Below, in pieces: positions 2,134-13,086 of a stretch of DNA of 64,000 bases. Below the pieces are notes generated by a model. The model did not search any database. It was not told the origin of the DNA and saw only the letters and a list, made by a program, of their open reading frames with translations. Source of the stretch: Limimaricola soesokkakensis. Lineage in GTDB: Bacteria > Pseudomonadota > Alphaproteobacteria > Rhodobacterales > Rhodobacteraceae. The stretch is taken from NCBI RefSeq assembly GCF_900172345.1, contig NZ_FWFY01000006.1:124001-188000 (forward strand), written 5' to 3'. The translations under genes were made by a program, and so were the position numbers. The stretch's first letter is position 1. The number at the start of each line of letters is the position of its first letter.

Positions 2134-4890
<2,757 letters not shown>

Positions 4891-7875: not shown

Positions 7876-8346
7876 ATGACCGAGCGCGCCAGCGGCGAGA
7901 CCGACCTGATCAAGCTCTATTCGCAGCGCATCCTCGCGTTGACGACGGAGATGCCGCTGACCGAGCGGCTGGATGCGCCCGACGCCACGGTGAAGCGGCG
8001 CGCGCCATTGTGCGGCTCGACCGTAACGGTCGATGTGACGGTCGAGGATGGCCGGGTGAGCAGGTACGGGCAGGATGTGAAGGCCTGCGCGCTGGGTCAG
8101 GCGGCGGCGGCGATCGTCGGCGGCGCCGTGATCGGGCGCGACCATGGCGAGTTGGCCCATGCCCGCGACCAGCTGCGCGCCATGCTGACCGAAAATGCTC
8201 CGGTGCCCGATGCCCCCTTCGACGGGTTCGAGGTGCTGCTGCCCGCGCGGGAATACCGCAATCGGCATGCCTCGATTCTACTGGCGATCGAGGCGGTGAC
8301 CCAAGCGGTAGAGGAAGCCGAAGCGCGCCGACGCGCTGCAGTCTGA
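7876..8346 (+). CDS. IscU/NifU-N-like iron-sulfur scaffold protein
   Basis: A 156-residue protein resembling the IscU/NifU N-terminal scaffold on which Fe-S clusters are assembled. Two of the three family cysteines are visible: APLCGSTVTVDV and KACALGQAA. Where the third would be expected (HCS in IscU, KCA in SufU), this protein reads NRHASILL, with no cysteine. It may therefore be a divergent scaffold or a carrier with another ligand. No isc or suf genes are nearby. Its divergent neighbour is hisI. ATG at 7876 follows a purine-rich GAGAGG. Confidence 0.75.
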   Translation: MTERASGETDLIKLYSQRILALTTEMPLTERLDAPDATVKRRAPLCGSTVTVDVTVEDGRVSRYGQDVKACALGQAAAAIVGGAVIGRDHGELAHARDQLRAMLTENAPVPDAPFDGFEVLLPAREYRNRHASILLAIEAVTQAVEEAEARRRAAV

Positions 8347-8353
8347 CAGCACG

Positions 8354-8390
8354 AAAAAAGCCGCCGCGCATCCTTCGGGATGGCGGCGGC
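8354..8390 (-). terminator. Rho-independent terminator of the small LexA-box gene
   Basis: Read on the minus strand, a GC-rich stem (arms at 8378-8390 and 8360-8373, one bulged base, UUCG-type loop) is followed by six T residues (plus-strand aaaaaa at 8354-8359). Orientation fits termination of minus-strand transcription from the 40-codon gene at 8516-8638. Confidence 0.8.
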
Positions 8391-8515
8391 GAAGGCGGGA
8401 CCCTTCGGGGCTCCGGCCGCGCGCCGAAGCATGGCTTCGGGGCGACGGATGGGCGATCCGCCGCGATTACCCCGCGGGATCAGGGCTGCGGCGACCGGCA
8501 AAGGGTCCGGGCAGA
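8391..8515 (-). other. Structured GC-rich 3' untranslated region
   Basis: No convincing gene. The stretch holds consecutive small hairpins, for example ccgaagc-atg-gcttcgg and cggat-gggcg-atccg. It would be transcribed on the minus strand as the 3' end of the 40-codon gene, before the terminator at 8354-8390. It could be a plain 3' UTR or a small RNA. Confidence 0.4.
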
Positions 8516-8638
8516 TCAGATCAGGCCGGGCAGCCACAATCCGACGAACAACAGGATCATCAGAGACGCCGCGCCCAGCGCGTCGGCAACGAGGGTGTCG
8601 CGAGAGCGGTTCACTGCAAGTTTGAGTTCCTGGGCCAT
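8516..8638 (-). CDS. 40-residue single-span membrane protein, putatively SOS-induced
   Basis: A 40-codon gene with a very good ribosome site (GAGGAG, 6 bases before the ATG at 8638). The product has a charged, helix-prone N-terminal half (K6, R11, R13, D14, D19) and one hydrophobic helix from about residue 20 to the end (ASLMILLFVGLWLPGLI). The positive-inside rule predicts a cytoplasmic N terminus. The gene has its own control region with a perfect GTTC-N7-GTTC LexA box 63 bp upstream and its own terminator. I recognise no family. By analogy with the tiny SOS-induced inner-membrane division inhibitors of Caulobacter (SidA, DidA), a checkpoint role is plausible, but this is inference. Confidence 0.7.
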   Translation of the reverse strand: MAQELKLAVNRSRDTLVADALGAASLMILLFVGLWLPGLI

Positions 8639-8701
8639 CCGCGTCTCCTCTCTGCAAGCTCCTGTTGCTGCTTTGTTCCCATACGAGGCGACTGCTGTAA
8701 A

Positions 8702-8716
8702 GAACTTTATGAGAAC
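8702..8716 (-). promoter_or_regulatory. LexA operator (alphaproteobacterial SOS box)
   Basis: GAAC-TTTATGA-GAAC on plus reads GTTC-TCATAAA-GTTC on minus, an exact match to the known alphaproteobacterial LexA consensus GTTC-N7-GTTC. It lies 46 bp after the recG stop and 63 bp before the start of the 40-codon gene. It therefore most likely controls that gene rather than recG. Confidence 0.8.
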
Positions 8717-8761
8717 ATTGCCGCTAGGCCGAGGTAGTGCTCTGTATTCTACATGAATTTT

Positions 8762-13086
<4,325 letters not shown>

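Follow-up and report, generated by a model that had tools for sequence, protein, structure and literature searches.

A conserved 40-codon membrane-peptide gene with an SOS-type promoter behind recG in Rhodobacteraceae, a possible checkpoint of cell division

The window analysed here, i.e. the whole stretch of 64,000 nucleotides of Limimaricola soesokkakensis DNA, contains a compact minus-strand unit between recG and a convergent gene. The unit consists of a promoter, one very small gene, and a terminator. Its elements and immediate neighbours are the following:

8762–10858, minus strand: recG, the conserved upstream neighbour (context, outside the unit)
8702–8716, minus strand: putative LexA operator 1, GTTCTCATAAAGTTC (GTTC-N7-GTTC), found in 79 of 80 loci selected by their recG, with 0.28 expected
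8696–8701, minus strand: -35-like hexamer TTTACA abutting operator 1, from the promoter alignment (presumed function)
8664–8678, minus strand: second conserved element, GAACAAAGCAGCAAC (GAAC-N7-CAAC), from the promoter alignment (putatively bound by LexA)
8645–8650, minus strand: ribosome-binding site GAGGAG; a Shine-Dalgarno-like motif is found in 117 of 122 relatives
8516–8638, minus strand: 40-codon gene with an ATG start, identified by its frame and conservation, with modelled helices at residues 2–11 and 13–39 and a break at 12
8354–8390, minus strand: intrinsic terminator from folding, a 13-bp stem interrupted by one bulge and followed by six T
7876–8346, plus strand: SufU/IscU-like convergent neighbour, from a match to the SufU model (context)

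On the minus strand, recG is followed in order by the box, TTTACA, GAACAAAGCAGCAAC, GAGGAG, the 40-codon frame, and the hairpin with its six T, the recG stop lying 45 nt from operator 1. The coordinates given by the first-pass annotation for the 40-codon gene, the GTTC-N7-GTTC box, and the terminator were all right. The terminator hairpin has a folding energy of -26.8 kcal/mol (z -3.39) and contains a single bulged base, which is probably why a pattern scanner for terminators did not list it. The neighbour at 7876–8346, previously called IscU-like, does match the SufU model, but with 45.8 bits this match is under the cut-off of 92.5. A SufU/IscU-like gene adjoins the peptide gene in 22 of 29 loci that were chosen by their peptide and in which the peptide was re-found (30 loci were fetched, and tblastn did not re-find the peptide of L027, even if it is present). 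The box is found in 28 of these 29 peptide-chosen loci, the exception being L030.

The 40-codon frame has the features of a protein-coding gene. We compared 122 frames, corresponding to 142 loci minus 20 without a frame scoring above 25. All of them start with ATG, and 114 of the 122 products have exactly 40 residues. The median dN/dS is 0.335 (3933 pairs), the two wrong frames giving 1.04 and 2.02. Only the true frame has a ratio well under 1, so its codons are under purifying selection. The entropies at the three codon positions are 1.07, 0.66, and 1.57 (116 distinct frames). Codon-position entropy and dN/dS rule out non-coding conservation or an RNA gene as explanations, and Rfam gave no match at 8200–8900 (E ≤ 1).

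The alignment of 66 members has two invariant residues, D19 and G22, and a pair, L36-P37, conserved in at least 90% of the rows. A relative added later (L299) has E at position 19, so D19 and G22 are nearly invariant. The best hydropathy is 2.24 over 19 residues, from which a single membrane helix is predicted. Positively charged residues average 2.7 in residues 1–18 and are absent from residues 23–40 (114 members). From this distribution the N-terminus is predicted to be inside. AlphaFold2 places helices at residues 2–11 and 13–39 (mean pLDDT 86.7, pTM 0.48), and the predicted topology is one membrane helix, within residues 13–39, with the N-terminus inside. The N-terminal half modestly exceeds shuffles in its amphipathic moment (0.535 vs 0.439). 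Several species of one genus, g24 (L169, L174, L176–L178, L181, L182), encode a 31-residue peptide that has lost most of the N-terminal amphipathic part. Judged from these shorter forms, the data suggest that the membrane helix with its D-x-x-G motif is the essential part of the protein.

Searches in family libraries returned little. The window protein matched 0 families of Pfam and NCBIfam at E ≤ 1. When the 66 members were searched, each family match concerned one member only, with best E-values of 0.041 (NCBIfam), 0.015 (Pfam), and 0.0021 (PHROGs). None of the 33 members submitted to PADLOC was matched, and the PDB gave no match at E ≤ 1. Among the matches listed in the open-licence literature, no paper appears to describe the peptide gene and none names an SOS division inhibitor for Rhodobacterales. 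The main text of the paper on the LexA sites of D. shibae (PMC6473078) does not mention recG.

We then assessed how widely the gene is distributed. With one sequence as query, 163 of 198 family genomes gave a match (E ≤ 1). A profile of 27 rows identified the gene in 354 of the 390 genomes of the order sample (E ≤ 0.01), and all the genomes listed belong to this same family. Most of the 36 profile misses reflect divergence: 31 of the 34 that were traced have a diverged copy behind recG. Among 20 of them, 19 have the box and 19 have a diverged short membrane peptide behind recG; the 14 others include 13 with the box and 12 with the peptide. The total is 385 of 390 genomes when weak diverged copies are counted and with two of the 36 misses left out. 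The diverged copies in the first 20 misses score only 9.6–18.4 bits, and their assignment rests partly on position and on the D-x-x-G motif. Some of the diverged forms have 31 residues, e.g. MTRDTAVDLVGGAALGVTLILLLWLPAILQI.

Loci selected independently of the peptide gave the same association. We took the best 80 of 478 RecG relatives, picked by RecG alignment only and leaning to closer relatives, and found the peptide in all these named loci (80/80). Altogether we examined 161 loci (61 picked by the peptide, 80 by RecG, and the 20 misses): recG is always present and the box lies ≤200 nt past its stop in 158, the adjacency to recG being a property of the fetched loci. Six further genomes lacking a single-sequence match, which we chose ourselves, include four with box and peptide (the one of L299 being weak) and two with neither (L301, L302). 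Among the recG loci inspected, those of L173, L287, L300, L301, and L302 have no peptide gene behind recG; L300 has the box there, and the four others have neither box nor peptide. The first-pass annotation had staked its proposal on the frame or the box being conserved in relatives, and the proposal strongly survived this comparison (354/390 genomes, peptide in 80/80 loci, box in 79/80).

The recG loci of 30 genomes from other alphaproteobacterial families, which we chose for their size and completeness, have a box within 200 nt in 0 of the 29 testable cases. Three of the 30 loci have some hydrophobic short frame, none of them alike by eye. A class-wide search with one profile (A1) gave a best outside match of E = 6.0e-4, within a frame of 495 residues, and no convincing one. 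Another profile (A3) gave E ≤ 0.05 in 20 of 380 other genomes (best 0.0035), mostly in parts of longer frames, and none was taken as real. The peptide family is restricted to Rhodobacteraceae in the samples searched. Peptide distances track RecG distances (118 loci, r = 0.47, 0/999 permutations), which points to vertical inheritance.

These results bear on whether the gene encodes a toxin. TisB of E. coli is an SOS-induced tiny membrane protein, the toxin of a type I toxin-antitoxin pair. A protein of this kind would lower the membrane potential and lead to dormancy. The size of the peptide, its amphipathic N-terminal half, and its SOS-type promoter would all suit such a role. Yet the gene is present in most genomes of the family, stands behind recG wherever it was fetched by the peptide, and has one match in its own genome. 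Rfam gave no known RNA family at the peptide locus (8200–8900, E ≤ 1), no antitoxin was seen there, and the folding of the leader is ordinary (z 0.29). We regard a TisB-like toxin as improbable because of the conservation and inheritance of the gene. A mobile toxin is likewise disfavoured by the RecG-like distances and by the lack of any match in phage and plasmid collections (one relative's peptide as query, E ≤ 1). The alternative offered by the first-pass annotation, a damage-induced toxin in the TisB sense, therefore fits less well than its other proposal, a checkpoint of division.

Taken alone, the box is weak evidence because the window contains four GTTC-N7-GTTC repeats, with 1.14 expected and four or more found in 3 of 100 shuffles. 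Its significance comes from conservation: the box lies 5–110 nt past the recG stop in 79 of the 80 recG-selected loci, and the background rate of the same DNA predicts 0.28, which rules out a chance box. Its A-rich form, GTTCYNNNNAAGTTC, occurs a single time in the 3.94-Mb genome, at this locus. Another of the four repeats, at 8815–8829 within the end of recG, has T before the second half-site and recurs in two of the five named Limimaricola loci (L088 and L089, not L090–L092); it may be a chance occurrence or a local extra LexA site. The two others, at 4749–4763 in a frame (2134–4890) that we take to be gyrA-like and at 11749–11763 in ligA, are probably due to chance.

Several observations connect the box with LexA. 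The protein is encoded in 30 of the 30 family genomes tested, and the direct repeat GTTC-N7-GTTC precedes lexA in 30/30 and recA in 28/30 of them. The same arrangement, which defines operators of the LexA regulon, is what we find at 8702–8716. The fit is nonetheless incomplete. The box had been described as a perfect LexA box. Both of its GTTC half-sites are indeed perfect, but the second one is preceded by A, in the window as in 131 of 142 distinct relatives, whereas 26 of 30 lexA boxes and 27 of 28 recA boxes have T there. The extended consensus of Caulobacter, quoted as (T/A)TGTTC-N6-TGTTC in the accessible text of PMC13384398, is thus not matched, the second half-site reading AGTTC in the window and these 131 relatives. 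A matrix built from the lexA and recA sites scores its own sites at about 19.5, the family boxes at a mean of 10.1, and the window box at 11.4; the three other repeats of the window outscore the latter (12.1 in the gyrA-like frame, 17.4 in recG, 12.4 in the ligA-like frame). As far as sequence scores go, this speaks against a strong LexA site, even if the matrix, built from the sites of just two promoters, is too narrow for judging affinity. In summary, the earlier description of the gene as SOS-controlled is likely correct, given LexA in all 30 genomes and the same repeat before lexA and recA, with the off-consensus base and the low matrix score counting against it.

The rest of the promoter is informative. 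With the box as anchor, we aligned 142 distinct promoters (the 161 loci minus L030, L157, and L173, which lack the box, and minus 16 duplicates); the GTTC half-sites are at 100% in this set by construction. The promoters have far more in common than the box. The box has a conserved A-rich spacer and is directly followed by TTTAC or TTGAC in 115 of 142 promoters, and by TTGACA in L185. About 38 nt past its start, GAAC-N7-CAAC occurs in 127 of 142, and GAAC-N7-GAAC in only 2 of 142. An extra GTTC is found 10 nt upstream of the box in 111 of the 142, and the window is without it. The second element is a box-like repeat in the opposite orientation, lying over the presumed -10/start region, such that the two, mutually inverted, flank the interval presumed to run from -35 to -10. 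The locus of a Rubellimicrobium MAG (L157) has no GTTC-N7-GTTC box, yet it keeps GAAC-N7-CAAC and has a TTGACA, and provides a natural test of which promoter element matters.

One could argue from these details that the gene is real and that another regulator acts at its promoter, the GTTC repeat being a look-alike of LexA sites. This would account for the conserved A where T is usual ahead of the second half-site, for the low matrix score, for the A-rich spacer, and for the sequence of the second element, GAAC-N7-CAAC rather than GAAC-N7-GAAC. However, the lexA and recA boxes of the family have these same half-sites and the same N7 spacing, which 79 of 80 loci keep, and the two-promoter basis of the matrix lessens the weight of its low scores. 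We find a different regulator quite unlikely. On the pattern of its motifs, the promoter is very probably controlled by LexA, which would bind an operator that is a conserved variant. On this reading the gene would be a core member of the SOS response of Rhodobacteraceae.

Some expression may escape this control. The pattern scanner listed no terminator between recG and the operator (8717–8761); because of this and of the short gap of 45 nt, expression independent of damage could occur by readthrough from recG. The box starts ≤30 nt from the recG stop in 55 of the 80 named loci. A stable leader fold in the readthrough RNA was considered and is unsupported (z 0.29).

The known proteins that most resemble the peptide are small inhibitors of cell division; we describe them from the accessible portions of the papers cited. 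SidA of Caulobacter crescentus is a very small inner-membrane protein of an alphaproteobacterium, is SOS-induced, and acts on FtsW (PMC4211646). It has 29 residues, compared with 40 here, and the likeness is one of description, not of sequence comparison. In Caulobacter lexA mutants, filamentation depends on sidA (PMC12700426). DidA of the same species is also small, with one predicted membrane helix and short flanks, and interacts with FtsN, but it has 71 residues and is induced by DriD independently of the SOS response (PMC4211646). YneA of Bacillus, SosA of Staphylococcus, and ChiZ of Mycobacterium are small membrane inhibitors of late division induced by the SOS response or by damage (PMC13396833). 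They belong to other phyla. The LysM domain of YneA and ChiZ is missing from the peptide described here, and SosA has an extended helix. The membrane helix of YneA binds TM7 of FtsW, and SidA was also modelled on TM7, with low confidence (PMC13396833). In its probable way of working, a vertically inherited single-pass peptide of the SOS type, whose D-x-x-G at the edge of the membrane is nearly invariant, is closest to SidA and DidA, and it also resembles YneA.

By analogy with these systems, our preferred reading, in which we place about even confidence, is that the gene encodes a LexA-repressed small membrane protein that would, in the manner of SidA, block division at the step of FtsW/FtsI. 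To keep the gene off, LexA would bind the direct repeat next to the -35 and possibly also the second element, which lies inverted across the start region. Upon damage, RecA filaments on the DNA would trigger the self-cleavage of LexA and turn the gene on. A short terminated mRNA would then give the 40-residue protein, which would insert with its N-terminus inside, laying the amphipathic positive helix at the inner face and passing one helix across the membrane. Through contacts involving D19, G22, and L36-P37, the transmembrane helix would bind a protein of the late divisome, FtsW or FtsW/FtsI being the most likely, and septal wall synthesis would be halted until repair is complete. The peptide had been proposed as a Rhodobacterales counterpart of SidA and DidA: its size, topology, and control fit this proposal, and the arrest of division through FtsW/FtsI is what we infer from the analogy, giving it about a one-in-two standing.

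Other targets have been weighed against the divisome. The peptide could be an SOS-induced small membrane regulator of, e.g. a sensor kinase, a membrane protease, a transporter, or a DNA-uptake complex, tuning the cell during repair. The same promoter and conservation evidence would apply, the strong conservation of D19 and G22 suits any helix-helix contact, and in this order LexA has links to CckA/CtrA and to gene transfer (PMC6473078 and PMC9638019, in their accessible parts). Against this, SidA, YneA, SosA, and ChiZ all act on late division (PMC13396833, accessible part), and the locus points to no specific partner, so we hold a non-divisome target to be unlikely, if the most plausible of the alternatives. 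A narrower version of the link to gene transfer would make the peptide a part of the gene transfer agent, acting in lysis or release; it draws on the requirement of LexA for the production of this agent in Rhodobacter capsulatus (accessible text of PMC9638019). The GTA_TIM family was not found in 25 of 197 genomes of the family, of which four listed as ≥99% complete (G036, G123, G076, G141) carry the peptide. A role in the gene transfer agent is disfavoured by such peptide-bearing genomes, to the point of being scarcely credible.

The division-arrest reading can be extended into a fuller proposal, to which we give slightly less than even weight: Rhodobacteraceae would have their own SOS checkpoint protein, of 31–45 residues, encoded behind recG, controlled by two inverted LexA-type operators on either side of the site of RNA polymerase in a conserved promoter, and stopping division through a helix contact with FtsW/FtsI. 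The case illustrates that a conserved gene of around 40 codons can remain outside curated family libraries. A near-universal membrane peptide of the SOS type makes the arrest of division after DNA damage testable in Rhodobacteraceae with one small gene. If the proposal is true, the peptide may be a brake on division while the DNA is broken, across a large family of Bacteria.
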